A DNA stretch of 22,698 nucleotides, taken from IMG/VR virus record IMGVR_UViG_3300032722_000132, positions 1 to 22,698 of that record; one strand, written 5' to 3'. Position numbers and translations under genes: made by a program. The stretch is from a virus. Of the stretch, positions 4,910-20,313 are shown piece after piece. A model generated the notes under the pieces. It ran no database searches and was not told where the DNA came from. It saw nothing but the letters and a program-made list of their open reading frames with translations. Within the stretch, counting starts at the first letter, position 1, and each line of letters starts with the position of its first letter.

Positions 4910-5497
4910 TTATTGTGATTTAATAATATATTCTAAAGATGTTGCTGTAGTTGTAATATAGTTTAGTGATGCCATTGAGCTGTTTGCGGTCATGCTAAAT
5001 GTTAAATCTGTTGTTGACGTTTCTGTATAATCTTCGTAGTACGAAACTGTAGATCCTGCGGCATTGTAAGCAACAACAATATCGCCTGTGCGATGTTTTG
5101 TACCTTGGGTTAATGTATAAGTAATCACTGCATTGTTAGCAGAGATGCCTGCAATATTACCGGATGTACTTGCATTGAGAGCAACACCAGTGCTAGTTAC
5201 ACCCGATTGCAATGCAGAAATTTGCGAGTTGATAGTAGTAATGTTTCCCTGTAAAACTGTAACATTACTCTGTAAGGCTGTTACGTTGGCAGTAAGGGTA
5301 TTAGTAAAATTAATAATACTAAACTGAGTTAAAATTTCAGTTGAGCCTACTGCGGGTGCTCCTTCAGCCAGTGTGCCGTTACCAATGTATAATTGTCTTG
5401 TATCATTGCTCCAAGCTAATTCACCGGATGCTAACTGTGGTAAGTCCTGTTTTAAACCACGTCGAACTTGTATTTGTGAAATTTGTAAAATTGCCAT
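4910..5497 (-). CDS. Tail-fibre-like protein with Mtd-type N-terminal domain
   Basis: The 195-residue protein opens with QIQVRRG, followed by LASGELAWSNDTRQLYIGNG (about 7-42), the signature of the short N-terminal module of phage fibre and tropism proteins (Mtd_N-like). Residues about 58-110 (NFTNTLTANVTALQSNVTV and onward) form a heptad-like Leu/Val/Ile pattern typical of a trimeric coiled coil. A Ser/Thr/Gly-rich beta segment follows. Short length and no chaperone domain suggest a small fibre, hub or baseplate accessory. The ATG has an AGGAT ribosome site, and a GCTAAATA late box lies about 25 bases upstream, fitting late expression. No reverse transcriptase or variable-repeat signature is present, so a diversity-generating cassette is not supported. 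Confidence 0.72.
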   Translation of the reverse strand: MAILQISQIQVRRGLKQDLPQLASGELAWSNDTRQLYIGNGTLAEGAPAVGSTEILTQFSIINFTNTLTANVTALQSNVTVLQGNITTINSQISALQSGVTSTGVALNASTSGNIAGISANNAVITYTLTQGTKHRTGDIVVAYNAAGSTVSYYEDYTETSTTDLTFSMTANSSMASLNYITTTATSLEYIIKSQ

Positions 5498-5533: not shown

Positions 5534-6520
5534 TTACAAAGTGTATTTCCAGTAATTTTTCAAAATGTGACTGCGATCCTCGCCGGTAATTGATCCGCCG
5601 TTGGGCCCGTTAAATCCACACATATTGCACACTTTTTCAGGAGTTAGTGTTCTAGCAAACCAGGACTGTATTTCTTCATCGGTACTGTCAGGACCCACTG
5701 TTTTATATTCGTTAAGATATGGTGCCCAGTCTGCGCGATCCTGTATGTTAAACGTATTCAGTGTATGCTCTAATACTCCCATTGGAGGACACTTCCACAT
5801 TTTTCCACGGTACAAAGTGATAAAATCATTGGTCTGGCAACTTTTAAAATTGCTTTCATACCACGTGTCATTATAATCATATACAGGATGCATTTCTTCG
5901 GCGTATCCTTCGTAATGCTTGCACCAGTGTAGTTTATGCTGTTCGCAAGTAGTAAATCCAATACGTGTGCTACGTCCATTAACTACTAAGTTAAACCATT
6001 GCTTGGTGTTTATATCTTTTTCATCTAGCCATAGGTTCCATACCGCAGAAGTTACACCCGGTAAACTTAAATGATATTCTAACACTTTCTGTTTAAGATT
6101 TTCAAAGCTGTTTATAACTTTACTTAGGTATGGCTCAGTTGCTGTTTGATAACTAACTACCATGCTCATTGCAATGTCATTGGGATTACTGTCAGAAAAT
6201 AACAAAGGAATATGATCAAGTAGCGTGTCTAGGTAATAGCCATTGGTATTTAAACTAACCGGAACAGTAGGTCCCCATATACGGCGAATTGCCTGTGCCC
6301 ATTCTGTAAACTCGGGATGCAGTAGCGGTTCACCGCCAAACAAAGTAATTGCATTAGGTTGTAATTTTGTAGACCAAAACTCTAGCCAGTCTATACTTTC
6401 ATCAATCCTAACTATACCCTTGATATTTTTATGATTACTGTGTGTCATACAACCGGCGCAGGCTAAGTTGCAACTTCTAATAATAGGTATATCTAAATGT
6501 TCTATTTTAATTTTGTTCAT
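5534..6520 (-). CDS. Radical SAM enzyme with C-terminal cysteine cluster
   Basis: The 328-residue protein carries the radical SAM cluster motif C17-x3-C21-x2-C24 (CNLACAGC), which binds the [4Fe-4S] cluster, and the SAM-binding GGEP at 62-65. A CNMCG motif near the C-terminus, together with earlier cysteines (KSCQTND, KCPPMG), resembles the auxiliary-cluster (SPASM/twitch) region of peptide-modifying radical SAM enzymes. The substrate cannot be read from the sequence. Its start overlaps the stop of the PD-(D/E)XK nuclease gene as TAATG, so the two are translationally coupled. A QueE-type role is possible, since phages carry these for deazaguanine DNA, but no other que gene is visible. It is one of three radical SAM genes in the window. 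Confidence 0.88.
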   Translation of the reverse strand: MNKIKIEHLDIPIIRSCNLACAGCMTHSNHKNIKGIVRIDESIDWLEFWSTKLQPNAITLFGGEPLLHPEFTEWAQAIRRIWGPTVPVSLNTNGYYLDTLLDHIPLLFSDSNPNDIAMSMVVSYQTATEPYLSKVINSFENLKQKVLEYHLSLPGVTSAVWNLWLDEKDINTKQWFNLVVNGRSTRIGFTTCEQHKLHWCKHYEGYAEEMHPVYDYNDTWYESNFKSCQTNDFITLYRGKMWKCPPMGVLEHTLNTFNIQDRADWAPYLNEYKTVGPDSTDEEIQSWFARTLTPEKVCNMCGFNGPNGGSITGEDRSHILKNYWKYTL

Positions 6521-7277: not shown

Positions 7278-8015
7278 ATGAAAACTCTAATAAGTGGCTG
7301 TAGCTTTACTCAATGGCCCGAATACCCAGGAGGTCCAAATATATGCTGGCCTGTTTACTTACAAAAACTTTTACCAAATAATCAATTAACTAGCATTGCA
7401 GAAGCAGCCGCAGGTAATCAATATATTTGCGATAGTGTAATAAGAGAAACATTATTAAATCAATATGACCAAGTACTTGTCATGTGGTCTGGTGTAACCC
7501 GGTTAGATTATTTAACTAGCATAGAAGATCCTGCATGGAATAACTTGTTCGATAGTTATGGGTTTTATCGTAGAATCCCCGGAGATAAACTAGGTTGGAT
7601 CTTTAGTGGCGGCCAACTTGGTACTTGGTTCAAGCATCCTGTAGCACATAAGATGTTTTACGAAATGTATAAGGTTAGTAGTGATCTAAGTCTGGCAACT
7701 ATTAATCTAATGGAAATTATAAAACTACAAAACTATCTCAAGGCAAAAGGTATACCATTTAAGTTTATGAGTTATATAAACTACTGGACTGAAGGTAAAC
7801 ATATAAGTCCCAACGGCGACTTTGGTTTGTCGGATATTCCCGAAGTGCAGTATCTTATCAATGAAATAGATTTTGACCAATGGATTTTTGCAGATAATAA
7901 GCGTAAATGTATCTACGATGTTGCTAAAGAACTAAACAGTTTTGAAGCAGATGGATTTCATCCCGGCCCTGCAGCACATCAAGCCTGGGCTGAATTAATT
8001 ACTCGATCAATATGA
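7278..8015 (+). CDS. SGNH/GDSL-like hydrolase
   Basis: This plus-strand protein (245 aa) shows the SGNH blocks: SGCSF at 6-10 (nucleophile S9), AAAGN at 43-47 (block II-III residues), a VMWSGVTRLD strand, and the C-terminal D225-GF-H228 pair in DGFHPGPAAH. These enzymes remove acyl groups from sugars or lipids. A TTG at 7275 could extend it by one residue, but the ATG at 7278 is preferred. There is no Shine-Dalgarno site; a late box ends five bases upstream. The last 37 bases overlap the end of the glycosyltransferase-like gene on the other strand. The pairing suggests a shared glycan theme, for example de-acylating and remodelling surface polysaccharide, but this is inference. Confidence 0.75.
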   Translation: MKTLISGCSFTQWPEYPGGPNICWPVYLQKLLPNNQLTSIAEAAAGNQYICDSVIRETLLNQYDQVLVMWSGVTRLDYLTSIEDPAWNNLFDSYGFYRRIPGDKLGWIFSGGQLGTWFKHPVAHKMFYEMYKVSSDLSLATINLMEIIKLQNYLKAKGIPFKFMSYINYWTEGKHISPNGDFGLSDIPEVQYLINEIDFDQWIFADNKRKCIYDVAKELNSFEADGFHPGPAAHQAWAELITRSI

Positions 8016-9061
8016 CTGGCAGCAAATGCAGTCCAGTCGGTTGTCATAATATGATTGTAGTTGTAATCTAATACCGGTTGTATAGTGTTGTACACTTCAA
8101 GTTGATCCATTGAACATAATTTCTTTACTTGTTCAAATGCTTGTGTGTATCGTTCTACAGCATCCTCGATTAAGTCGTAACTTTCATCAATTACACAATC
8201 AAAAGTTTTAAAGCCTTGTGCTTTTAAATTATATAAGAACTTGTATCCAGTAAATGCAATAAACAATCTGCGGGCAATCATTGGTTTGGCTGTTTTTTCA
8301 CTGTAGAAACTTAATGTATTATCGTGGTCAGTTTCTGCAACAATACTGTACGCTGTATCATTAAAAACACTCACAGGAATCACACGACTCAATCCAGTAT
8401 GCACCCCATAATACTTTACTGGGCCGGCTGTACCGGGTTGTTGTTCACCTATAACTTCAACACCGGGTTCCCAGATAAAATAATCTTTTGCGTAAAACTC
8501 TTCATCGTTCCATTTACCACCGTAGGTTAGTATAAACTTATCTTGCAGGCTGTTTGTTTGTACTGCATCATACACAAAATCCCTATGTGGCTTGGGACTG
8601 CCTAATAGGGCATCAAACATTTTAGGTTTACTAACACCATACGTAATTTCTGCCAATTGCAATGGTAATTGCTTGTACAGTGACGTAGTTGTTTTGAACC
8701 AATCGCCCCAGAATATAAGACGATCATTCATTTCTGTGTTTACTTGCCCGGGTACAATCCAGTAGACGTTATCGTAGTGGCATTTATCCCATATCGTCCA
8801 GTGGAAATTATGTAACTCACTTTCAAAAGAAAAAACAAGATTACTAATATTACTAAGTTTGTTTATTTTATCTTCAAAGCCCTGGTATGCAGCGCAATTG
8901 ATATCGTGGTCGCAATGCAGGCGGTGCATAGTAAATGCAATCTTTGTGTCAGCAGTGGTATCTCTGTATTCTTCAAAACTGTGCGATACAGTATAATCAC
9001 CTAAATTTAATTTAGGCAACCATTCAAGGTCAATGATTGTACTATCGCTGTATACCAACAT
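7979..9061 (-). CDS. Glycosyltransferase-like protein
   Basis: The 360-residue protein has a C-terminal block (about 235-300) with VAETDHDN, then SEKTAKPMIARRLFIAF, then LKAQGFKTF and IDESYD. This E-K-T-x-K-P pattern with a following GF-x-TF and DESYD occurs in exostosin/fucosyltransferase-like nucleotide-sugar enzymes of phages. The N-terminal half has no motif I can name. The start overlaps the IscA stop as TAATG, so it is coupled to the Fe-S genes. The 3' end overlaps the SGNH-like gene on the opposite strand. A role in modifying virion or host glycans is plausible; the donor and acceptor cannot be told. Confidence 0.6.
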   Translation of the reverse strand: MLVYSDSTIIDLEWLPKLNLGDYTVSHSFEEYRDTTADTKIAFTMHRLHCDHDINCAAYQGFEDKINKLSNISNLVFSFESELHNFHWTIWDKCHYDNVYWIVPGQVNTEMNDRLIFWGDWFKTTTSLYKQLPLQLAEITYGVSKPKMFDALLGSPKPHRDFVYDAVQTNSLQDKFILTYGGKWNDEEFYAKDYFIWEPGVEVIGEQQPGTAGPVKYYGVHTGLSRVIPVSVFNDTAYSIVAETDHDNTLSFYSEKTAKPMIARRLFIAFTGYKFLYNLKAQGFKTFDCVIDESYDLIEDAVERYTQAFEQVKKLCSMDQLEVYNTIQPVLDYNYNHIMTTDWTAFAASHIDRVINSAQA

Positions 9062-10747: not shown

Positions 10748-11173
10748 TTAAGCGCCGGCAGCTCGTTTAGCCATTGAGCTAACTACTTTAGCTGGGTCGC
10801 CTGGAGCCGCATCTTGTGCGCCTAGTGGATCAGAATCATCAACGGTATTTTCTGGTAAGGCCAAATAGATATACTTGGCTCCAGTTTTTTCATCGTCTTT
10901 GATATCTTTAATTAGACTTTTTACAGTTTCGTTGTGCTCATTTGCAGCTTCAAGAGCAGCAAAATTGAACGCTTCATTGCCTGGGATGGCACGAACACGT
11001 TCAATAACTGTATCAACAGCAACACGTGGTGTTACTGCATTGCTTTGTTGCGCTTCGTGACGTAACCATTCTAGAGTAGTAAGTAAAGCAGAATCTCCAC
11101 GAGTCTCTGCTTCATCTTCAATTGCGCTACCTGGAACTGTGGTATCTTCTAGAATGATTTCGTTTATACGCAT
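10748..11173 (-). CDS. Probable internal head protein with capsid-targeting-like N-terminus, 141 aa
   Basis: The protein begins MRINEIILE|D, matching other late proteins here and ending in I-L-E, the [I/L]-x-E rule of the T4 prohead protease. The rest is helical and acidic, with a Pro/Gly/Asp-rich region near the C-terminus and a final KRAAGA. No enzyme motif is seen. It starts one base after the stop of the acidic protein upstream. Scaffold, internal head protein, or assembly partner are all possible; the N-terminus is the only clue. Confidence 0.65.
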   Translation of the reverse strand: MRINEIILEDTTVPGSAIEDEAETRGDSALLTTLEWLRHEAQQSNAVTPRVAVDTVIERVRAIPGNEAFNFAALEAANEHNETVKSLIKDIKDDEKTGAKYIYLALPENTVDDSDPLGAQDAAPGDPAKVVSSMAKRAAGA

Positions 11174-11174
11174 A

Positions 11175-11888
11175 TTAACGACGCTCGCGGCCTAATTCTT
11201 CTTCGCCACCGGCAGCAGCATCAGTAGCGCCAAATTCGTCGCCATCGAAGTCTGATTCAGGAGGAGCGCCTAAGTCGCCTTCTGGAGCACCACCTAAGTC
11301 TGCACCGAGTTCTTCACCACCAAAGCCGCCTTCGTCACCGCCTAAATTCATATCACCGGCTGGAGCTTCTTCGCCTGCCAATTGACGTACTGCTGTATCG
11401 CTTGATTCACGACCAGACTGTAGTGCTTGATATAAACTAGTCAATACCGGAGCAATAGCACTTTTAAATGCTTCTGCTTCTGTTGCACCAATTTGATCAC
11501 GGATTGTGTCAACAAGTGCAGGGATTTGTTCGTTTTGTACTTTAGATACTTTTTCTAACATGTCTTGTAGACTGTCAACAATATCTTTAGCGGCTAGAAC
11601 TGCTTCGCTCTTGCCCATTGCGCTTTCAAATAAACCTTGTTCGCTTGACATCCAACGATCTAGGCCTTCTTTTACTAACATTAATTCCATGTACTTACTA
11701 TTCTTTTCAGCTGTATGCGAGCCAAAAGATTTCTTAATAGCAGTAATGTTTTCAGCAAGTGCTTGGCTTAAACGTTCGGCTTTAGCATAAGTTAAGTTAT
11801 CATAGTCGACTGTGAAGCCAAAGCGACTTTCCATAACTTTATTAATTTTTTGCGGTGTTACCGCGGTGTGCATTTCAGAGAGTCTCAT
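11175..11888 (-). CDS. Acidic helical protein, possibly prohead core or scaffold-like
   Basis: The 237-residue protein starts MRLSEMHTA, has a long helical body (about 15-170, with AAKDIVDSLQDMLEKVSKV) and an Asp/Glu/Gly-rich tail (about 185-233; GGEELGADLGGAPEG). It ends basic (GRERR). Helical body plus acidic low-complexity tail fits an assembly core or scaffold, but I cannot name a homologue. It follows a CATAAATA late box (11916-11923) with a TAGGA ribosome site and is paired with the 141-residue protein, one base apart. Confidence 0.65.
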   Translation of the reverse strand: MRLSEMHTAVTPQKINKVMESRFGFTVDYDNLTYAKAERLSQALAENITAIKKSFGSHTAEKNSKYMELMLVKEGLDRWMSSEQGLFESAMGKSEAVLAAKDIVDSLQDMLEKVSKVQNEQIPALVDTIRDQIGATEAEAFKSAIAPVLTSLYQALQSGRESSDTAVRQLAGEEAPAGDMNLGGDEGGFGGEELGADLGGAPEGDLGAPPESDFDGDEFGATDAAAGGEEELGRERR

Positions 11889-11915
11889 TTGTTTATATTC
11901 CTAAACTTTATGTAG

Positions 11916-11923
11916 TATTTATG
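11916..11923 (-). promoter_or_regulatory. Late promoter box (CATAAATA)
   Basis: One mismatch to TATAAATA, 27 bases before the ATG at 11888, with a TAGGA ribosome site between. It leads the two-gene unit 10748-11888. Confidence 0.6.
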
Positions 11924-11924
11924 T

Positions 11925-12461
11925 CTAATCCCAGACTTTGGCTAACTTTGCATATAGGTGTATTTGCGATACTTTGTTCCTAGCAATCGTTAACTTAGTC
12001 TCGGCCATTTCCAACCTGGCCACTCGCGAATCTACAAGCAAATAGTCCTTATTTTTACGTGCCGCTTCAATTATGTGTCGTAAAGATAACATATCTGTAT
12101 AGTTTTTATTTATTTCTCTATCAAGGATGATGATTTCATCTGCTGAATGATATCGACGCTTAATAGTATATACAGTATACAACATAGCACTAATTTTGTT
12201 CTCAAATATGTGAACTAATTCGTGGTTATGATTGTATACTTCGCAGGTTTTATTAGGATGTGTAATTAATCTATATTGCCCAATTTTATAGCCGTTGTTG
12301 ACTGGAATACATAGTGGGCTTGTTTGAGCCTGTTGGATTTTACCTAACTCACGTGTGGTCCACTGTTTAATGTAGTCTGTTGCGGCGTTAGATACTGCTC
12401 GGATTTCGTGCTTCGCTGGGTTAGCGTATTTTTTTCGTGTATGTGATTTGACCATTGTCAT
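11925..12461 (-). CDS. Conserved T4-like phage protein of unknown function, 178 aa
   Basis: The protein has a basic N-terminus (KSHTRKKYANPAKHEIRAV), a middle with YRLITHPNKTCEVYNH, and a helical C-terminus (ISAMLYTVYTIKRRYHSADE, then EINKNYTDMLSLRHIIEAA). Similar proteins recur in T4-like marine phages, as far as I recall, without known function. The start is uncertain: ATG at 12461 or the ATG two codons later. It overlaps the upstream small gene by 41 bases, so translation is coupled. Confidence 0.75.
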   Translation of the reverse strand: MTMVKSHTRKKYANPAKHEIRAVSNAATDYIKQWTTRELGKIQQAQTSPLCIPVNNGYKIGQYRLITHPNKTCEVYNHNHELVHIFENKISAMLYTVYTIKRRYHSADEIIILDREINKNYTDMLSLRHIIEAARKNKDYLLVDSRVARLEMAETKLTIARNKVSQIHLYAKLAKVWD

Positions 12462-12630
12462 TTCGACGTAACAGGATGTCCTGCGTCGTTAATTGATTTG
12501 CAATTACTTGCTCTCGTTCATCGAGTTTATTCTTTGTAATACTAGGTTCATGTTGAAAACGTCCTAGTAGATCGGCTTGTTCGTTTGTTATTGCAACTTG
12601 TATGTTGCTGAGTAATTCTACTATTTTCAT
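12421..12630 (-). CDS. Small protein of unknown function, 69 aa
   Basis: It starts MKIVELLSNIQVAITNEQAD and contains DEREQVIANQLTTQDILLRR, probably a helix-turn-helix-like or all-helical fold. I do not recognise the family. Its ATG overlaps the stop of the coiled-coil gene upstream (ATGA at 12627-12630) and its 3' end overlaps the next gene by 41 bases, which supports it as a real gene in a coupled cluster. Confidence 0.7.
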   Translation of the reverse strand: MKIVELLSNIQVAITNEQADLLGRFQHEPSITKNKLDEREQVIANQLTTQDILLRRNDNGQITYTKKIR

Positions 12631-12887
12631 TTTAAAAGGTGTAATACTACACCAATAAGTCCTGTCATTAATGCTACAAGTACCGCAGTACCAATGGTAA
12701 TTAATGTTTTATTGCTTTCACCGCCTACTTTACCTAGGCTGTCTTTGATGTCAATAATATGACCTTCTAAGCTGTCCATCCGTTTATCTAAATTTTCCAG
12801 TTTAAATTCCAAGTTAGAGTATCGTTCGGCACAGAGTTCTACGTGCGCTTCCAGGCTCTTTTTTTCAATATCGGTTGTTGTGGACAT
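12627..12887 (-). CDS. Coiled-coil protein with C-terminal membrane helix, holin/XhlA-like
   Basis: From the chosen start the protein is 86 residues: an N-terminal coiled coil (about 10-52; ERYSNLEFKLENLDKRMDSL) and a C-terminal transmembrane helix (about 61-83; TLITIGTAVLVALMTGLIGV). This resembles XhlA-type small membrane proteins of phages, some linked to holin function. The ATG at 12887 has an AGGAT site just upstream; an ATG at 12905 would add six residues. It starts the cluster with the two following genes and could act in lysis, which is inference. Confidence 0.65.
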   Translation of the reverse strand: MSTTTDIEKKSLEAHVELCAERYSNLEFKLENLDKRMDSLEGHIIDIKDSLGKVGGESNKTLITIGTAVLVALMTGLIGVVLHLLK

Positions 12888-12978
12888 TATCCTATTCGCT
12901 TTCATTTAGCGATGCATTTGTTAATTGAGCCTGTTTGTGCCTTAATAATGAGCCATAATGGTGCCTAAGCATCTATAC

Positions 12979-12986
12979 TATTTAGC
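12979..12986 (-). promoter_or_regulatory. Late promoter box (GCTAAATA)
   Basis: It overlaps the stop codon of the 12982-13410 gene and could drive the coiled-coil gene and the two genes after it. About 75-90 bases of untranslated leader would result. Confidence 0.4.
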
Positions 12987-13410
12987 TAGGAATGATTTGT
13001 TTAAAGTATATGTTTTTGATTGTGCCATATGGATAAAAGATAGGTAGCATAAAACGTGCTGTTTCATTTAATCCTGTAATAATAGGCACTTGCTCAAAGT
13101 CTTGCATCAGCCCGCCCAGGGGTTTATCGGACATATCATATATACCCGACACTTCAACAGCCCATTGCCACATCCAAATTTTTTGTTGTCCAGTGTAAAA
13201 GTCGCCAAACTCTAAATTACTCAATTCAAGTTCGGCAGTTATAGGTTCATGTATGTGCTGTGGCTGTGTTCGTAACCCGATACATTGTAATACTGTTTCC
13301 CAATTACGTTGTTGGTTACGGTCTGTACTGTTGTTGTCCCCGCGAGTCATACCAGTGGCTGTAATATCTATTAGACTGTACCCCTGGAAGAAATATAAGT
13401 TGCTGGACAT
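12982..13410 (-). CDS. T4-like phage protein of unknown function, 142 aa
   Basis: The protein begins MSSNLYFFQGYSLIDITATG and contains a NQQRNWETVLQ segment and QKIWMWQWAVEVSG. I take it as a conserved protein of T4-like aquatic phages but know no function. I chose the ATG at 13410, not 13416, because a late box (13416-13423) covers the upstream ATG. There is no Shine-Dalgarno site before 13410. The preceding gene ends with a strong terminator, so this gene needs its own promoter, which the late box provides. Confidence 0.72.
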   Translation of the reverse strand: MSSNLYFFQGYSLIDITATGMTRGDNNSTDRNQQRNWETVLQCIGLRTQPQHIHEPITAELELSNLEFGDFYTGQQKIWMWQWAVEVSGIYDMSDKPLGGLMQDFEQVPIITGLNETARFMLPIFYPYGTIKNIYFKQIIPS

Positions 13411-13415
13411 AAACA

Positions 13416-13423
13416 TATTTAGT
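13416..13423 (-). promoter_or_regulatory. Late promoter box (ACTAAATA) five bases before an ATG
   Basis: ACTAAATA, then TGTTT, then ATG at 13410. It sits just after the terminator of the gene upstream and would give a leaderless or nearly leaderless RNA. Confidence 0.5.
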
Positions 13424-13429
13424 GGCCAT

Positions 13430-13458
13430 AAAAAAACGCACTATAAAGTGCGTTCTTT
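13430..13458 (-). terminator. Rho-independent terminator of the 133-aa virion-type gene
   Basis: On the minus strand AACGCACT and AGTGCGTT form an 8-bp stem (13435-13442 with 13447-13454) with a 4-base loop, followed by a run of seven T. It lies 20 bases after the stop codon at 13478. Confidence 0.92.
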
Positions 13459-13477
13459 TGTTAGTTTAAAAAAGCTA

Positions 13478-13879
13478 TTAAGCTAATTTGAAACCTGTTG
13501 TACTTGTAACAGTAACAGCGTTAGCCCATACGTTACCTGTACCTAATGTTGCACTAGCGTTAGCCAATGTAGCAATAGCTGTAGTATGAGTTGTATCTGA
13601 ACCGCCTGTAGATTCAACTAAAACGCTTAAACGATCTGTATCAACTTGATACATAACGATTGTTGAATCAATCGCTAGTTCGCGTAAAATTGCTTCTACT
13701 GGACCACCAGTAGCTAAGTCTGTTGAAGCAAAAACTTGACTCTTGCCTAAAACAATTTTAATTGCTGTTGGGTTTTTTGTTAAACCTGTAGCGATTAATG
13801 AACCTAGTGTACCTGTGTAACTTGCGTCAACGTTGTTAACGCCATTTGCATCACCTGCATAACGTGTTTGGATTGCCAT
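13478..13879 (-). CDS. Probable abundant virion protein, 133 aa
   Basis: The protein begins MAIQTRYAGDANGVNNVDAS and is rich in Ala, Thr, Val and Gly in a beta-type pattern, without signal or membrane segment. It has a single-gene unit: a perfect TATAAATA late promoter (13920-13927), a strong AAGGAG ribosome site, and a strong terminator. That arrangement is typical of a highly expressed capsid decoration, tail tube or similar structural protein. I cannot name the family, so the structural role is inferred from composition and regulation. Confidence 0.7.
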   Translation of the reverse strand: MAIQTRYAGDANGVNNVDASYTGTLGSLIATGLTKNPTAIKIVLGKSQVFASTDLATGGPVEAILRELAIDSTIVMYQVDTDRLSVLVESTGGSDTTHTTAIATLANASATLGTGNVWANAVTVTSTTGFKLA

Positions 13880-13919
13880 TTTTAAATCTCCTTAATATAT
13901 GTGCATCTCTGCATACATT

Positions 13920-13927
13920 TATTTATA
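13920..13927 (-). promoter_or_regulatory. Perfect T4-type late promoter TATAAATA
   Basis: An exact match to the T4 late consensus, about 40 bases before the ATG at 13879, leading into an AAGGAG ribosome site. Confidence 0.8.
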
Positions 13928-13958
13928 CTTTTATAAAAAAAATGTTATTTTAGCTACT

Positions 13959-15029
13959 CTATTTGTTAAAGTGTGCTGCGCCAAATACACCGCGATTGAC
14001 CAGCTTGATCATTCCTGCTGTGGGGCTATTGAATACAAAGCCCTCTCCTGCTTTATGACCGCCAGTCCACTGTTCAAAACCCTGTACTTGAGGCTCTAAT
14101 TGAGCCGCTAAATTAGTTTTTAGTGCATAAATGGCGTTCCAAATAGCCTTTAATGCTTCAAACCCTTGTGCGTTGGTATATAGATAGCCATCTTCGTTTT
14201 CGCCAACTAATTTCTTAAATTGCTGTGCAGATATATTATGTTGTAGCCAAGGAACAATTTCTTCATTGGTTTGTGCTGTGATCTTGTGGTTAAAATACTT
14301 TTGTATCGCGGCCTTAGCAACACTTTGCAAGCCAGCTAAAAACTCATCGGACAATTTGCCATACTGTGTAACTGCCTTGGTAGCAGCTCCAACTAACTGC
14401 ACAGGTGTGTTTAATTTAAATTTTATACCAGCAGTAGGACTTAGTATTGCTACGTTGCCTTTGTTGGCTAGGCCAGTTTTGCCATCCCATGGAGTACCAT
14501 TCATTTGGTGTACTGCCAAGATGCCAACTTTACCTGCAATCAATTGACCAATTGCAGATTTAACCGGAACATGATATTCCACTGTAGTTGGGCTGAATAT
14601 AAACATACCGTTCTGTGGCTGTAGTTCGCCGACTGACATTAAATCGCCTTTAAATATCGCTCGTTCTGTTACTGCGGCTTTTAACCCATTCCACACCAAT
14701 GCAATCTTAGGATATAGATCGGGACGTGCTGTACGTGATGACTTCATTGTAGTGTCGTATACTTCCCAGTCCTTTGCACTCTTGGCAAAGAAACCTTCAG
14801 GCATATATTTGTCATTGATAAAGAATTCGCCAGCAGGTGTATAACCAAATATTAATGCAATGCCGCCATCCCACTTAATACTAACGGAGCCGGGATTGGC
14901 AATAACTTCTTGTAGGCCTCGAACATACTTGGCCGCGCTGGCACTACCATCAAATATACTATCTTCTGGGTGCGGAATGCGTGTTGGTGCAGCAGCTTCA
15001 AACAGGTTATCTATAAATTCTAATTTCAT
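13959..15029 (-). CDS. KxDG ligase-like (covalent nucleotidyltransferase) protein
   Basis: The 356-residue protein shows motifs of the DNA/RNA ligase and capping-enzyme superfamily: motif I KWDG (K52, D54, G55), a FKGDL motif III-like segment (126-130), and near the C-terminus EGFVF (329-333) with IKLVNR (K342) as motifs IV and V. This suggests AMP or GMP transfer through K52 and perhaps nucleic-acid ligation, though activity is not shown. The N-terminus MKLEFIDNLFE|AAA is capsid-targeting-like, ending in L-F-E. Its ATG overlaps the stop of the GNAT-nucleotidyltransferase gene (ATGA). I recall similar proteins of unknown function in T4-like cyanophages. Confidence 0.72.
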   Translation of the reverse strand: MKLEFIDNLFEAAAPTRIPHPEDSIFDGSASAAKYVRGLQEVIANPGSVSIKWDGGIALIFGYTPAGEFFINDKYMPEGFFAKSAKDWEVYDTTMKSSRTARPDLYPKIALVWNGLKAAVTERAIFKGDLMSVGELQPQNGMFIFSPTTVEYHVPVKSAIGQLIAGKVGILAVHQMNGTPWDGKTGLANKGNVAILSPTAGIKFKLNTPVQLVGAATKAVTQYGKLSDEFLAGLQSVAKAAIQKYFNHKITAQTNEEIVPWLQHNISAQQFKKLVGENEDGYLYTNAQGFEALKAIWNAIYALKTNLAAQLEPQVQGFEQWTGGHKAGEGFVFNSPTAGMIKLVNRGVFGAAHFNK

Positions 15030-16378
15030 TTAAAATAACCCTTAACCATATCTAAACCTTGTTGTATTTTTTCTCTATCGCTATTAGCACGTGCAATAGC
15101 ATCTGGTGTTGTAGCTTTATCACGTTTTTTACCGGCAATATCTATTTGTGCTTTTTCGTCGTAGCGTTGCAGGAACTTGGTTAAGAAGTCTTGCCCTGAC
15201 AGGAAACCTGCCAAGTCGCCTTGACCGAACATATCATTCATGTCACAACTTTCAGCAAAGCCTTTAATACCCTGTACCAATTTACTAATCTTAACATCAT
15301 TGACGTCATTGCCGGGATTTTGCTTTAATAGTGGACTAACCTTGGGATTCTTAATACCCAGGTTCTTGGCCAGATACATGAATGTATCATAGATAAATGT
15401 TGTTGGGCTAGTTGTAACTGTGACTACCTCTGTGTCTTTTTGTTTACTAAAAGGAACGTGTTGGCCATCTTGTACTTTTAATTGTACGCCAGCATGTTGA
15501 ATACTTAGATCAAGTAGTTCTCCTAGTACGCTAAACATATTGCCATGCAATAAGCCTTTAACTCCGCGTTCGGGAGTAACACGACTCGCACCCCATTGTT
15601 CTAACCGCTCTGGGTGCCACATAAAATCTACTTGTACAAATTGGTTGTTACCCAGGGCAAAGATAGGATGTCCTGCTTTACTTTCGCTTGTATCTACATA
15701 AGGAGCATGGCCTTGTTTAACAAAGTCATCAGCCAGCTTGTTCCAGTATGCTGTAAATTGTCCGTAACTTTGACCCGCTGTTTCTGGACCAATCATTTGT
15801 AAATCAATATCACCATATACTTTGTCAGGATTTTCCTGAGTATCAGCTTCGTGATGTGCGCTGGATCCTGTGGGACGTCCGCGACGTACTGGACCCAATC
15901 CGTGTGGCTTTAAATACGCATTAAAGTCTGCAACAAAACGGTCTACTACTTGCAGGGCTACTGCAACAATCCGAGGGTGTAGAACTGTACCTTGTGTTAA
16001 GGTTGTGTCCCAGCCACCTTCCCATAGTCGACCTTCTTCGCCGCGATTCTTGTCCCAGAAGTATTTGCCAGCATCGGTTTGTTCCGAACTGCGTTCAATT
16101 TTAAAACCTAGGCTTTTTACATAATCATACATGATTGCAGCTATGCCTTGCCCGCGATACTTGTCGTCTACTGCCAAATCATAAGGCACCATAACGTTGC
16201 CATCTCGATCAAACTCTGCGTATCCTAGTCTCCGTCCGTTTGATGATGCATAAACACTTGCATTTTTGCTATTAGTGTTGATACTTACTTGAATACCATC
16301 AACCTCTGCTGTTTTATTAATCAACGCAGGTAGACTTGAATCTGAGTTCCACTCAAGAATAATATCTCTTATTTTCAT
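15026..16378 (-). CDS. GNAT acetyltransferase fused to a Pol-beta-type nucleotidyltransferase
   Basis: The 450-residue protein has three parts. Residues 1-9 (MKIRDIILE) are capsid-targeting-like. Residues about 25-115 look like a GNAT domain, with the acetyl-CoA loop RGQGIA at 75-80 and WDKNR near its end. Residues about 130-300 carry nucleotidyltransferase motifs: GSS (171-173), YGDIDLQM (D190, D192) and a third acidic residue in QVDFMW (D251), which bind Mg2+ and NTP. The rest is helical. The substrate is unknown; tRNA, other RNA or protein are possible. It overlaps neighbours by ATGA at both ends and is flanked by a second nucleotidyltransferase and the ligase-like gene. Confidence 0.72.
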   Translation of the reverse strand: MKIRDIILEWNSDSSLPALINKTAEVDGIQVSINTNSKNASVYASSNGRRLGYAEFDRDGNVMVPYDLAVDDKYRGQGIAAIMYDYVKSLGFKIERSSEQTDAGKYFWDKNRGEEGRLWEGGWDTTLTQGTVLHPRIVAVALQVVDRFVADFNAYLKPHGLGPVRRGRPTGSSAHHEADTQENPDKVYGDIDLQMIGPETAGQSYGQFTAYWNKLADDFVKQGHAPYVDTSESKAGHPIFALGNNQFVQVDFMWHPERLEQWGASRVTPERGVKGLLHGNMFSVLGELLDLSIQHAGVQLKVQDGQHVPFSKQKDTEVVTVTTSPTTFIYDTFMYLAKNLGIKNPKVSPLLKQNPGNDVNDVKISKLVQGIKGFAESCDMNDMFGQGDLAGFLSGQDFLTKFLQRYDEKAQIDIAGKKRDKATTPDAIARANSDREKIQQGLDMVKGYFK

Positions 16379-17142
16379 ATCTGATGGCCTAGCTTTCTAA
16401 ACCATGCAGCTGTTCCCGGTGCTACGTCTTCGGGAAGGGTTAGTAACCCCTTGGCTTGGTCTTGTTTGGCTTGCGCTAACTTGCCTTCGCGGTCGGGGTC
16501 ACTGGCTAATGCTTTTAATACAGAAGCTACTGAGTTTAAATCTGCGGCGTGTGCGCCCGGGTTCAAAAGTACTTTTGCGGCTGCTTCACGGGTGTCTGCG
16601 ACTACGGAGTTGTCGTCCCGGCGCATTACTGTACCACCAAATGCATCTACTTTAAGACCTAAAAATTTACCAATACTGTTTAATAGAATGAACAATTGAT
16701 TGCCTTTGAATGCTGGATCATCGTACATGCCACGTGGGCCATGCTGATGCCAGTCGGCAACTCTTTTAGCATCGGGTATGATCATTAAATCTACTTGTGC
16801 ATATAATGTCTTACCATCTGCTAGTTTGTAAGGAACATCAACGTGTACGTTGCGACCTTTTACTGCTACTGCATAACCTTTAGCTTGGAAGTATTGTGCT
16901 AATGCTTGTTTAGCCTGCTTCTCATCTGCTACACCAAAGTTCTTTACTGTGACAGCTTGATCTAAAAACAAATCAATATCTCCACTTGCTACTTTATAAC
17001 CAGCACTACCAATATCTGCCATGACATGACGCTGTAGTCCACTTGGTAGATCTCGTTTAATTGTGTCTACTACTGCGGCAACATTTTCTTTTGCCACATC
17101 GCTTGTATTATCGAATACATTTCCACCTTCGTATAGGTACAT
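16375..17142 (-). CDS. Pol-beta-type nucleotidyltransferase
   Basis: The 255-residue protein has the superfamily pattern IGSAGYK (G45, S46), SGDIDLFLD (D55, D57) and AQVDLMI (D118), spaced as in MNT/tRNA-NT-type enzymes. It lacks the GNAT domain of its neighbour. Its start MYLYE|GG is shorter than the other N-termini but also gives an L-x-E site. The ATG overlaps the upstream stop (TAATG) and the stop overlaps the next start (ATGA). Antitoxin-type, RNA-modifying or counter-defence roles are possible. Confidence 0.75.
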   Translation of the reverse strand: MYLYEGGNVFDNTSDVAKENVAAVVDTIKRDLPSGLQRHVMADIGSAGYKVASGDIDLFLDQAVTVKNFGVADEKQAKQALAQYFQAKGYAVAVKGRNVHVDVPYKLADGKTLYAQVDLMIIPDAKRVADWHQHGPRGMYDDPAFKGNQLFILLNSIGKFLGLKVDAFGGTVMRRDDNSVVADTREAAAKVLLNPGAHAADLNSVASVLKALASDPDREGKLAQAKQDQAKGLLTLPEDVAPGTAAWFRKLGHQI

Positions 17143-17933
17143 TATTTCTGCATACCTAAACTAATATCATGCTGTTGACTTAAGAACTGTTGTAATGATT
17201 CAGGCTGAACCTTGCCACTTGCTAAATGAATCCATTGTCCTCGATCGTCAAGCCCATATTCTTTACCCTTACCTGTTGTAATGATAATGGGTTCTTGATT
17301 CTTAATTTGTACGCCAGCAGCTTGTGCTTGTTGTACAATATCTTGTGGCTGATCGGGTACAGGTGGTGTTGCCGTTGTTGCCGGTGTTGCCGTTTGTTCA
17401 TCCCCGGGTTGTTGACCAAGTTGGTTGGCCATTTGCCCAAATACTTTCGACCCTTGAGCTGGTGCCGGCGCTTTAGCTGTAGCCTTTTTAACAGCAGGAC
17501 CGTTTTCGATACCAGCTGATACACGGGCAACAATGTTAGTTAAAAATTGACTTACCCCTTTAGGAGACATATCAGTTGGTTTTGGAATAGCAAATAACTG
17601 TGTACCATCGTGTCTTGTTGCTAGTTGTCTAGCATATTTTTGTAGGTTAGCCGGAGTGTTTGATGCTGGATTTGCCTGTACGCCTTGTGTCCATTTATTG
17701 ACCCAAATTTTGGCATCTTCTTGATTTCGCTGTGTGGCTTGTTGCCCGGAAACCTTGGCCTGTCTTTCAGCTGTGCCAGGAACAAAACCTTTTACTTTGT
17801 TCCATAGACTTGCTCTTGCCGGAGTATCCTCAGGTGCTGGCGCCGCCTGTGCTGGTGCTGCCTGTGCTGGCGCCGCCTTGGGGGTTCCTGTGCCTGTGTT
17901 TATTGCTTCGCTAATAACTTCGTTAATCTTCAC
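17142..17933 (-). CDS. Ala/Pro/Gln-rich protein with capsid-targeting-like N-terminus
   Basis: The 263-residue protein begins MKINEVISE|A (I-S-E site) and continues with an Ala/Pro repeat region (17-35), basic segments and low-complexity Gln/Thr/Pro stretches. A C-terminal LDDRGQWIHLASGKVQPES segment may be a small fold. It has no enzyme motif and looks like an internal head protein or a packaged DNA-binding protein. The start is GTG at 17933, chosen because a GGAGA ribosome site lies 8 bases upstream inside the preceding gene, which it overlaps by 11 bases. Confidence 0.68.
   Translation of the reverse strand: MKINEVISEAINTGTGTPKAAPAQAAPAQAAPAPEDTPARASLWNKVKGFVPGTAERQAKVSGQQATQRNQEDAKIWVNKWTQGVQANPASNTPANLQKYARQLATRHDGTQLFAIPKPTDMSPKGVSQFLTNIVARVSAGIENGPAVKKATAKAPAPAQGSKVFGQMANQLGQQPGDEQTATPATTATPPVPDQPQDIVQQAQAAGVQIKNQEPIIITTGKGKEYGLDDRGQWIHLASGKVQPESLQQFLSQQHDISLGMQK
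17836..17880. repeat. Three 15-bp tandem units coding AAPAQ repeats
   Basis: Units at 17836-17850, 17851-17865 and 17866-17880 are near-identical and encode the Ala-Pro-Gln repeats of the Ala/Pro/Gln-rich protein. Confidence 0.75.
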
Positions 17934-18171
17934 TTTTCATTCTCCGTACACCGCGTTTAAATTTCTCTGGTTCCTGGGTACGGATTGAATTGATTAATCG
18001 TCGTTCCAGCTCTCCTGCTTGCTCGGCATCGTAATTTTCACGTATATAATTGATTAGATTGATTGCTCCAGCGATTACGTTGGAGGCACGGCTTTCCACA
18101 AGATTCTCACGATCTTTGTGTACTAGCAACGTGTCTAGTTCGTCTAATATGCTACGGGCCTTCTTTTGCAA
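17923..18171 (-). CDS. Small conserved phage protein, 82 aa
   Basis: An all-helical charged protein (QKKARSILDELDTLLVHKD, VIAGAINLINYIRENYD, GELERRLINSIRT). I recall closely similar proteins in T4-like marine phages but not a function. The start is TTG at 18171, supported by a GGAG ribosome site 7 bases upstream. It is first after the late promoter at 18195-18202, leading into the operon with the packaged-type proteins. Confidence 0.75.
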   Translation of the reverse strand: MQKKARSILDELDTLLVHKDRENLVESRASNVIAGAINLINYIRENYDAEQAGELERRLINSIRTQEPEKFKRGVRRMKSED

Positions 18172-18194: not shown

Positions 18195-18202
18195 TATTTA
18201 TA
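18195..18202 (-). promoter_or_regulatory. Perfect late promoter TATAAATA for the 18171-13959 operon
   Basis: An exact T4-type late box about 25 bases before the TTG start. It drives the five-gene coupled operon with the nucleotidyltransferase and ligase-like genes. Confidence 0.78.
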
Positions 18203-18248: not shown

Positions 18249-19271
18249 ATGAATAATAATTTTTGTGTAATGCCGTTTTTTGGAGGCGAATACGATAAAT
18301 CTGGGTTTATTACACCTTGCTGTTTAATGAAACCACACAAGATAGACGAAGTAAGATCCCAGATGCTTAACAATATTCGTCCAGAATGCTGTAAATCCTG
18401 TTGGGATCTTGAGGATCAATCCATTAAAAGCGATAGACAATTAAAAAACGAAACCTTTGATTTTTATGAAAATCGAGATATTAATTTTATATTCCAAGAT
18501 TGTTGTCAAGGCAAATATAGTCCAAAAATTATAAAACTATACACTTCAAATCTTTGTAATGCAACATGTATTACATGCGGACCAACCGCTAGCACCAGCT
18601 GGGCAAAATTGAAAAGTATACCAATTAATTTAGTTACTATGGGTGACGATTCCTTAAACAAAATTAATTTTTCCACAATAACGTCTCTGAGTTTATTAGG
18701 GGGCGAGCCCCTGTACGATAAAAACATTCTTATTATTTTACAACAACTATTAGATAAAAACAATACCTCGTGTTTTATAAGTATTGTTACCAATGGAAGT
18801 ACTGAGCTTACTCAAAAACATATAGATATACTTTCCCAATTTAAAAATTTAAGTATCTGTGTTAGCATTGACGGAATTGGCCCGGTTTTTGAATATTTAC
18901 GCTATCCGCTAAAATGGTCAGTTTTAATAAACAACATCAAATTATTTAAAGAATTTGCAACTTATGTGAGTGTTAGTTATACTATAAGCAATTTAAATAT
19001 TTTATATTACCATGACACTATTGGGTGGTTTAATCAAAACAATCTAACATTTAATACTAATATAGTTTCGCATCCTAGTTATTTTAATGTTAATTCATTG
19101 CCTCAGTCTATTAAAGATCAACACCCCGAATTAAATCAATTTTTTAGACCCCACTTACCAATAGATGATCAAAATTTTATGTTAGCAATAAAAGAAATCA
19201 ATGCACAAGATCAACTTAAAGGATTAACCGGTGCCAATTTCATACCTCGATTTACTAACATAATTCTTTAA
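18249..19271 (+). CDS. Twitch-domain radical SAM protein (plus strand)
   Basis: The 340-residue protein has an N-terminal cysteine-rich segment (FCVMPFFGGEYDKSG, C24C25, C47C48xxC51), the twitch-like auxiliary cluster region, then the radical SAM motif C103-x3-C107-x2-C110 (CNATCITC) and GGEP at 151-154, then ICVSIDGIGPVFEYLRYPLK. This matches the N-terminal-twitch radical SAM family, whose substrates are unknown. The gene is AT-richer and on the opposite strand from its neighbours, with its own late box and no ribosome site, as expected for an inserted moron. Its end overlaps the paralogue's end by 17 bases. Confidence 0.88.
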   Translation: MNNNFCVMPFFGGEYDKSGFITPCCLMKPHKIDEVRSQMLNNIRPECCKSCWDLEDQSIKSDRQLKNETFDFYENRDINFIFQDCCQGKYSPKIIKLYTSNLCNATCITCGPTASTSWAKLKSIPINLVTMGDDSLNKINFSTITSLSLLGGEPLYDKNILIILQQLLDKNNTSCFISIVTNGSTELTQKHIDILSQFKNLSICVSIDGIGPVFEYLRYPLKWSVLINNIKLFKEFATYVSVSYTISNLNILYYHDTIGWFNQNNLTFNTNIVSHPSYFNVNSLPQSIKDQHPELNQFFRPHLPIDDQNFMLAIKEINAQDQLKGLTGANFIPRFTNIIL

Positions 19272-20313
19272 AATATTCGACTATGTCCGGAAAGACTTCT
19301 TTCCAACTGTTTTGCCGACGATGTTCCCACGTATTAATAAAATTATCAATATCCGACAGATTACTATTTAATTTGGTGTTGAGCAATAACCTATTAACAA
19401 TTCCGGCGGGCTCTGTTTTATTAATTAAATCCCGCAGAGAACGAGGAGTCTTTTCCAAATCCCAAATACCCCAACAAGGGTGAACATTAATTTCCGTGGG
19501 ATCTCCTAATCTATTAGTAGAAAATGTATTTTTAACCCAGTCTGTTAATCGATTATAATAAAAAACATTAAAAAGGTTTAATGTATGGTTAACCCTGAAC
19601 ATAACATTTACGGGAGCTTCCTTAACCAATCTTAGTAGATTATTTTCTACTTTGTCCCATTTTAATGGCCATCGTATATAATTAAATTGCTCCCCAATTC
19701 CATCAATTGATACTTCAAAAAATACCAATTTAAACTGACTCCATGTATTAAATACTTCGGCAGTGGGATATATACTACCATTGGTGGTATACCAAATTTC
19801 AACTTGAGAGGGATCTGGGATTTTCTTTAACACTTGTAGATGTGTATTTGTAAATAATGGCTCGCCGCCGAAAAACTTTATACGTCTAAGATGACTCAGA
19901 TCAAGGTCGGCTAATACTGTATTAATTGAATTAGGTACTATTGAATAGATTCTCTGGCTTTTTTTAAATTCTTTTTGCCACAATGTGCTTACGTCTGGTC
20001 CGCATGTAATACATGCTGCATTGCAATTAAAGTCCAAACTTATATCTATAGCTACAGGTTTTCCAGGAATCGTATCGGGTATTATATCAAAACTAGCTTG
20101 TCTAAAACTACTAATACCCGAATCTTCTTGTTGCTTACATACTCCACATTGTGGCGTCCAATTGTCAATTTGATGTAAGTGATCCAACGAGTTATTACCG
20201 TTTAACAGAATATCTTCCTTATACCAACAACACGGTTTTACAATGATTCCTTGCTGGTTTTGGAAAATTGACCAACCATTGGTTAAAAATTTACAAAATT
20301 TGTTAGACGTCAT
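19255..20313 (-). CDS. Twitch-domain radical SAM protein, helicase-coupled
   Basis: The 352-residue paralogue of the plus-strand protein keeps the same order: C28C29, C56-x2-C59, then the cluster motif C97-x3-C101-x2-C104 (CNAACITCGPDVST), FFGGEPLF, and EVSIDGIGEQFNYIRWPLKW. Its ATG overlaps the helicase stop (ATGA at 20310-20313), so it should be translated with the replication genes, perhaps earlier than the plus-strand copy. The two could act on different substrates or stages. Function is unknown; peptide or protein modification is typical for the wider group. Confidence 0.88.
   Translation of the reverse strand: MTSNKFCKFLTNGWSIFQNQQGIIVKPCCWYKEDILLNGNNSLDHLHQIDNWTPQCGVCKQQEDSGISSFRQASFDIIPDTIPGKPVAIDISLDFNCNAACITCGPDVSTLWQKEFKKSQRIYSIVPNSINTVLADLDLSHLRRIKFFGGEPLFTNTHLQVLKKIPDPSQVEIWYTTNGSIYPTAEVFNTWSQFKLVFFEVSIDGIGEQFNYIRWPLKWDKVENNLLRLVKEAPVNVMFRVNHTLNLFNVFYYNRLTDWVKNTFSTNRLGDPTEINVHPCWGIWDLEKTPRSLRDLINKTEPAGIVNRLLLNTKLNSNLSDIDNFINTWEHRRQNSWKEVFPDIVEYFKELC

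Follow-up and report, generated by a model that had tools for sequence, protein, structure and literature searches.

Why do several proteins with unrelated bodies, encoded at a single viral locus, begin with almost the same short peptide? The locus lies in IMG/VR record IMGVR_UViG_3300032722_000132, a virus sequence of 22,698 bases that is probably a fragment and that we call, as a whole, the window; all of its leader genes are on the minus strand. Here we argue that the leaders are likely to be capsid-targeting propeptides of the type known from phage T4, and that the cargo behind them would be docked, trimmed by a gp21-type prohead protease and supplied as several pieces per gene.

A shared leader on unrelated proteins

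Three window proteins start as a preliminary description of this DNA had reported, each with an [I/L]-x-E triplet ending at residue 9. MKINEVISE (17907-17933, with a GTG start) opens a protein of 263 amino acids (aa; 17142-17933), MKIRDIILE (16352-16378) a 450-aa protein (15026-16378), and MRINEIILE (11147-11173) a 141-aa protein (10748-11173). Also as described, MKLEFIDNLFE (14997-15029), which likewise ends in the triplet, opens the DUF6267 protein at 13959-15029. Positions 3 and 6 are hydrophobic in all three nine-residue leaders, with the spacing to the final E found in T4, and MKLEFIDNLFE is hydrophobic at just one of the two targeting positions. The leader is shared by unrelated bodies, a claim of the earlier description that Pfam, PHROGs and fold searches bore out; the 263-aa protein, which has a Pro/Ala-rich stretch, is without a family match in Pfam or PHROGs.

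We wrote the leader as the rule M[KR]-x(1-3)-[DEQN]-hydrophobic-hydrophobic-x-E and compared the 29 called window genes with 5000 shufflings of their residues 3-25. The full leader occurs in 3 of the 29 genes against 0.036 expected (0/5000 shuffles), and the bare [IL]xE triplet ending at residue 5-12 in 8 of 29 against 2.3 expected (6/5000 shuffles).

Two scans of IMG/VR gave at least 120 related loci, the second scan contributing the best 80 of 92. The leader rule was set after viewing the listing from four relatives, G001 (374 kilobases, kb), G002 (357 kb), G003 (158 kb) and G004 (129 kb), which hold 1430 called genes in 751 families, and was applied unchanged to four unseen relatives, G005-G008 (501 called genes, 360 families). 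The gene calls come from a simple script that missed two starts in cyanophage S-CREM2, and some starts may be wrong. In the first set the leader heads 13 families against 1.03 expected, or 9 against 0.82 once homologues of window proteins are removed (0/1000 shuffles in both cases). In the unseen set it heads 9 families against 0.45 (0/1000 shuffles), and, counting previously unseen families only, 2 against 0.26 (26/1000 shuffles). The shuffles thus reject a chance origin of the full leader in the window and in both sets of relatives. Behind M[KR], the bare triplet occurs in 30 families among the 1430 genes against 22.6 expected (39/1000 shuffles); weakly enriched in the relatives, it was rejected as evidence, and the information therefore sits in the whole leader.

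Aligned across related phages, as the preliminary description had suggested, the leader is kept and recurs on unrelated families. In the family of the 141-aa protein (n = 55), 47 sequences have E at residue 9 and 44 have I at residue 7, with residue 8 variable; mean entropy is 1.14 over residues 1-9 and 1.03 over residues 19-29, compared to 2.28 over residues 10-18, the highest of five stretches. In the DUF6267 family, [IL]xE precedes an HPED motif in 59 of 61 N-terminally complete sequences against 19.7 when shuffled, these sequences being related rather than independent. Leaders of the MKINEVISE kind stand at the same slot in G001-G004, before proteins of 244, 239, 377 and 135 aa. Among the other bearers in the relatives is a protein of 944 aa that matches amidoligase and, below the cut-off, possibly a metallopeptidase. 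Looser leaders occur on a GP88-family protein and on one that resembles cytidylyltransferases (below cut-off), and several further bearers gave no informative match.

The leader had been likened to that of T4 internal proteins, and the spacing does match, one residue shorter. A review (PMC9026906) assigns targeting by the T4 IPIII leader to residues 4 and 7 and its processing to residues 8 and 10; it lists the products of ipII, ipIII, gene 24 and alt, but not 61.1, as cleaved. Applied to 289 called T4 genes, the rule from the jumbo contigs finds ipII, ipIII and 61.1 (0.3 expected) but not ipI, 24 or alt; a rule built on the spacing and requiring E at residue 10 picks out five genes, ipII, ipIII, gene 24, alt and 61.1, against a null of 0.70. 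In the jumbo contigs E at residue 9 is enriched (13 against 2.27 and 7 against 1.04) and E at residue 10 is not (3 against 2.44 and 1 against 0.93), so that the jumbo leader resembles a T4 leader shortened by one residue. T4 gene 61.1 (18966-19130 of L204) starts MKTFKEFIKE, which fits the leader rule, and may encode an unrecognized packaged T4 protein.

Putative cleavage sites inside proteins

The triplet recurs within the 450-aa protein. A GNAT-like domain (residues 10-120; 16019-16351; Pfam Acetyltransf_1 on residues 39-92 at 21.9 bits against a cut-off of 20.7) stands between leader and body and ends RLWE, such that [ILV]-x-E appears to mark inner junctions too, with E9 and E120 flanking the domain. 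LWE120 (16019-16027), directly before GG, is a second putative cleavage site: all 16 aligned sequences have E120, G121 and G122; two positions ahead of the E, 13 of them carry I or L and three carry V, and the position in between is variable. The conserved body of the family begins with this GG, and in 11 of the 16 sequences the leader adjoins it directly, with junctions such as MKIRDIILE/GGWD, MRAKEFVIE/GGWD, MRAHEFLKE/GGWD and MKIFEILRE/GGWD. In the other five an extra domain or stretch intervenes and again ends in [ILV]xE before GG: the GNAT insert ending LWE in the window, and different stretches ending LYE, VQE or LGE in the remaining four. M[KR] together with E at residue 9 is found in 18 of 26 family hits; five of the remaining eight begin within the body, in one a longer N-terminus was called ahead of the leader, and two, L009 and L010, have no leader.

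Fused open reading frames keep such sites internally. One that joins a nucleotidyltransferase to DUF6267 (L011) retains LLE/ADASP, another and its counterpart (L029 and L031) retain LNE/GGA and LTE/ARDASP, and a further one (L115) retains INE/GGN. In AlphaFold models the predicted local distance difference test score (pLDDT) is below 50 at residues 1-16 of the DUF6267 protein and, in the 450-aa protein, at residues 1-20, 67-80 and 91-123, which would fit linkers, a weak point as few sequences cover the GNAT part.

The preliminary description had also counted MYLYE and MRLSE among the leaders. Both peptides start their proteins as claimed, but their reading as leaders held up less well. MYLYE opens the 255-aa nucleotidyltransferase-like protein at 16375-17142 (minus strand) and is followed by GGN; with [ILV]xE before GG (or SS, SL) in 38 of 39 relatives, and also inside fused proteins, it is probably better read as an [ILV]xE/GG processing site. 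MRLSE opens the 237-aa protein at 11175-11888 (minus strand) and is undecided as a separate leader: [LI]-x-E occupies residues 3-5 in 57 of 66 relatives, with D at residue 5 in nine, and conservation continues unbroken into the body.

The body of the 450-aa protein (residues 121-450; 15029-16018) appears to belong to the polymerase-beta superfamily. Foldseek matched its model to a polymerase-beta-like fold (E value 4.6e-4, probability 1.00), and VIA gave Z 10.2 with a root-mean-square deviation (rmsd) of 5.9 over 195 aligned residues, or Z 10.0 with an rmsd of 3.6 over 179 residues. D190, D192 and D251, invariant in the 16 aligned sequences, match GDxD plus a third Asp, the catalytic motif of the superfamily. 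The DUF6267 protein possibly bears a moderate resemblance to nucleic-acid ligases: VIA gave Z 7.0 and an rmsd of 4.1 over 183 aligned residues, in rows that were mostly ligases, the best Foldseek E value of 0.1 was non-significant, and KWDG is invariant in 26 sequences, KxDG being the nucleotidyltransferase motif of ligases. Between the two nucleotidyltransferase families the likeness is only weak (58 columns, E value 7.7e-6, probability 84). Profile searches of solved structures with three family alignments gave no meaningful match, tblastn of the 450-aa and 237-aa proteins against isolated phages gave nothing useful, and we found no mention of DUF6267 among open papers. Together with the second nucleotidyltransferase, these bodies would look like tools acting on nucleic-acid ends or gaps.

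Late promoters and the prohead protease

The preliminary description called these proteins late, and T4-type late promoter words do precede three operon heads on the minus strand. Two exact copies of TATAAATA lie at 18195-18202, before the 82-aa gene (17923-18171) that heads the leader operon, and at 13920-13927, before 13478-13879, while one CATAAATA at 11916-11923 precedes the operon running from 11175-11888 to 10748. Across the whole window, TATAAATA shows no enrichment when up to one mismatch is allowed (54 against 60.2). In G001-G004 the word falls 10-59 nucleotides before a start in 26 of 54 cases for TATAAATA, 28 of 44 for CATAAATA and 23 of 75 for AATAAATA, compared to 5 of 94 for TTTAAATA, 3 of 24 for TATATATA, 12 of 58 for ATATAATA and 6 of 71 for TAATATAA. 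Among distinct stretches from relatives, [TC]ATAAATA lies upstream of the counterparts of 17923-18171 in 17 of 38, of 13478-13879 in 54 of 58 and of 11175-11888 in 13 of 59, and was not found upstream of helicase (0/26), NrdA (0/25), NrdB (0/15) or exonuclease (0/35). A relative of gp55 is present in G001 (E value 3.5e-6) and G002 (1.0e-5) and was not found in four shorter records. Together, these words suggest late expression of the leader operons.

A search for a gp21-like protease, a further check proposed with the leader, succeeded in the two longest relatives and not in the window fragment or the partial records. G001 and G002 encode gp21 (PF03420; E values 6.5e-26 and 3.2e-25) and gp23 (PF07068; about 1e-98); neither was found in 12 other related records (31-158 kb, probably fragments). 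The head operon of G001 and G002 runs gp17, gp20, a 77-aa protein, gp67-like, gp21, gp22, gp23, with roles other than gp21 and gp23 assigned by position and reading. The 77-aa protein starts MFVTELFDP or MIISELFDP, and KMLAE/NASGG of G001 gp23 aligns onto the T4 cleavage site SFLTE/AEIGG. Separately, E followed by NASGG, HASGG or NASSG occurs in small proteins at 26280-26465 of G002, 12707-12904 of L240 and 2902-3060 of L242, which resemble the presumed mature gp23 N-terminus of relatives (LAE/NASGGAT).

Virion proteins at related loci

Supporting the earlier prediction that the leader proteins ride in the capsid, syntenic or homologous proteins of phages PA5oct and CBB are detected in virions; cyanophage S-SZBM1, discussed below, lends it no support. 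The leader operon is headed by an 82-aa head-and-packaging protein (17923-18171, minus strand, TTG start, phrog_11854), whose stop codon overlaps the GTG start of the 263-aa gene and whose homologues are CBB_292 and PA5oct gp259. PHROGs names this protein and those at 12421-12630 and 11175-11888 virion structural protein, head and packaging. The 69-aa protein at 12421-12630 (minus strand) starts with the leader-like MKIVELLSN, in which N replaces E.

Pseudomonas phage PA5oct keeps the order primase, helicase, 82-aa homologue, after which come gp258, gp257, two hypothetical proteins, gp254, gp253 and gp252; the record marks gp258, gp257, gp254, gp253 and gp252 as detected by electrospray ionization tandem mass spectrometry (ESI-MS/MS). 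PA5oct gp253 is related to the nucleotidyltransferase at 16375 (hhalign E value 4.3e-6, probability 86.8; hmmsearch 1.9e-8), and its start coincides with that of the window body behind E5. No match was found between the DUF6267 alignment and gp255 or gp252, or between the polymerase-like alignment and gp256, and profile searches of PA5oct, Phosso and BF genes did not find the ligase-like and polymerase-like bodies.

In phage CBB, whose helicase is CBB_291, mass spectrometry (MS) of virions detected CBB_292 (1 peptide), CBB_294 (4), CBB_298 (10) and CBB_299 (2), according to PMC5259590. In a ten-sequence search, CBB_292 is homologous to the 82-aa protein (E value 4.8e-18) and CBB_298 to the 237-aa protein (3.4e-17). 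CBB_299 takes the place of the 141-aa protein and starts MRFSQITE, with marginal sequence likeness (E value 0.0034).

Cyanophages and their kin extend the comparison. In C48C1 and Melnitz-2, DUF6267 and its neighbours have T4-like leaders (MMLDFKNFITE, MLSFKQFVSE, MQGFKTFLSE). An IP-type rule written after viewing these leaders matches 6 of 220 genes in the first phage (0.12 expected) and 4 of 219 in the second (0.09 expected), and the jumbo leader rule matches no gene in either. For S-CREM2 we took the virion table from PMC10665884, with annotated starts and 217 genes (gp85 and gp135 dropped). A spacing rule, its positions taken from published T4 mutants, matches 6 of the 217 genes, comprising 5 of 26 MS-detected proteins outside the structural/lysis set and 1 of 166 undetected (P 0.00017). 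The detected leader proteins are an S-adenosylmethionine hydrolase, a kinase, a cytidylyltransferase, ORF13 and ORF136. A virion-detected Cas9-like protein of S-CREM2 (7704-10313 of L229) carries the core of the leader further in, at residues 17-25 of its annotated frame. Among open papers, a search for capsid targeting together with cyanophages returned the T4 review PMC9026906 alone.

Evidence against and alternative explanations

Several observations weigh against capsid targeting. The MS-detected PA5oct neighbours are without the nine-residue leader, and gp21 is found in only 2 of 14 related records, with no match in the window fragment or the other 12. The S-CREM2 spacing pattern was fixed after viewing the N-termini of that phage, our own gene calls give 3 of 25 against 0 of 190, and, as the S-CREM2 authors say (PMC10665884), virions purified on caesium chloride can carry contaminants. 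In S-SZBM1 (205 genes used, including 28 of 30 detected proteins; genes 78, 163 and 208 onward dropped), E at residue 10 is found in 0 of 6 detected non-structural proteins against 4 of 177 undetected, and E at residues 9-11 in 1 of 6 against 4 of 177, the one being a cytidylyltransferase that starts MRFRQFIIE. Genes 191 and 192 of that phage have clear leaders and are undetected in virions. DUF6267 homologues in S-SZBM1 (gene 141, by reading the sequence) and MED4-213 start without a leader, and removal of the leader from the proteins studied here is something we infer from sequence.

These points have to be set against other accounts of the leader. It could be a cleaved propeptide of structural head parts, with the proteins staying in the shell or neck and nothing delivered. 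The model would be T4 gp24, which starts MAKINELLRE and sheds these ten residues (PMC9958956), and the neighbours do match PHROGs named virion structural protein. However, the bodies are enzyme-like (GNAT, polymerase-beta fold, possibly ligase, with an amidoligase match in a relative), and none of ten window proteins searched against Pfam at an E value of 0.01 matched the gp23/gp24 family (PF07068); we regard this account as unlikely. A localization or chaperone-docking tag for some other destination, such as a membrane or the replication site, would suit a cluster that sits between replication and nucleotide-metabolism genes. Yet the same spacing marks known T4 gp21 substrates and, in S-CREM2, MS-detected virion enzymes, and in PA5oct and CBB virion proteins detected by MS are encoded at this locus, which leaves such a tag very improbable.

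Finally, the leaders might be a meaningless product of the start-codon context common in phage genes (MK, MR, I, E), as the weak enrichment of the bare [IL]xE triplet could suggest. This we find hardly credible: the full leader far exceeds shuffled N-termini in the window and in both sets of relatives, the broad pattern follows only 29 of 5497 internal methionines compared to 28 of 1430 gene starts, and the sites are kept at internal junctions that lack a start codon.

Proposed mechanism and implications

We continue to favor capsid targeting. The cargo proteins would be made late in infection by an uncultured T4-like phage whose longest relatives measure 357-374 kb. The 9-11-residue leader, with the pattern hydrophobic-x-x-hydrophobic-[IL]-x-E and its last E at residue 9 where T4 internal proteins have it one residue later, would dock the cargo on the prohead core by its hydrophobic face, and a gp21-type protease would cut after [IL]-x-E, freeing the bodies inside the head. 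With [ILV]-x-E sites between domains, a single gene could yield several pieces of cargo; the 450-aa protein would be an example. Docking and cutting are what we infer for this phage, and ejection of the cargo into the host is a guess; if ejected, the polymerase-beta-like enzyme, the second nucleotidyltransferase and the ligase-like enzyme might act first on incoming DNA or host nucleic acid.

More tentatively, a single address code may predict enzyme cargo across the T4 superfamily, from T4 to cyanophages and jumbo phages, with prohead-cut polyproteins of jumbo phages delivering a polymerase-beta-like, nucleotidyltransferase, acetyltransferase and ligase-like kit along with the DNA, a generalization that we consider possible but somewhat doubtful. 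The T4 leader is known for a few proteins. If the code holds, the virion cargo of many T4-like phages, uncultured ones included, could be read from sequence, and the kinase, S-adenosylmethionine hydrolase and cytidylyltransferase in S-CREM2 particles would be explained. Such leaders would also be short tags, easily moved between proteins, with which a phage head could be loaded, and judging by the internal sites, phages may make polyproteins that are processed in the head.

Other genes in the window

Outside the leader genes, the window encodes IscA/HesB-like (PF01521; 9061-9381) and IscU/NifU-like (PF01592; 9580-9855) proteins on the minus strand, both iron-sulphur assembly genes, and radical-SAM-like proteins at 5534-6520, 18249-19271 and 19255-20313. 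The gene at 7979-9061 is without a Pfam or PHROG match and has at least eight relatives in G001, where the radical-SAM-like proteins also have several. The gene at 4910-5497 (minus strand) encodes an N-terminal Mtd_N domain (major tropism determinant N-terminal).

Comparison with known systems

The closest parallels are the T4 proteins IPII, IPIII and Alt, which share with the window proteins a short leader that ends in [IL]-x-E and has hydrophobic residues at the fourth and first positions ahead of the I/L, along with varied bodies, a gp21 protease and late genes. They differ in that the jumbo leader has its E at residue 9 and not 10, the bodies are larger and enzyme-like, and [ILV]xE also stands between fused domains. 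The nearest T4 peptide is the gp24 propeptide as much as an internal-protein leader: it has nearly the same residues, KINE-hydrophobic-hydrophobic-x-E, and is removed in T4, whereas the bodies behind the leaders here are not capsid proteins.

The ejection proteins of the giant phages phiKZ and SPN3US are reported to be similar in that many processed proteins occupy a jumbo head; by the description in a review they stand apart, with a diverged protease and other site logos. African swine fever virus packs polymerase X and a ligase in its virion. The gap-filling polymerase plus ligase inside a particle would resemble the cargo proposed here, an analogy only, as that virus is unrelated. The window leaders would represent a known kind of system, T4 capsid targeting, extended in leader length, in the enzymes carried and in internal sites.

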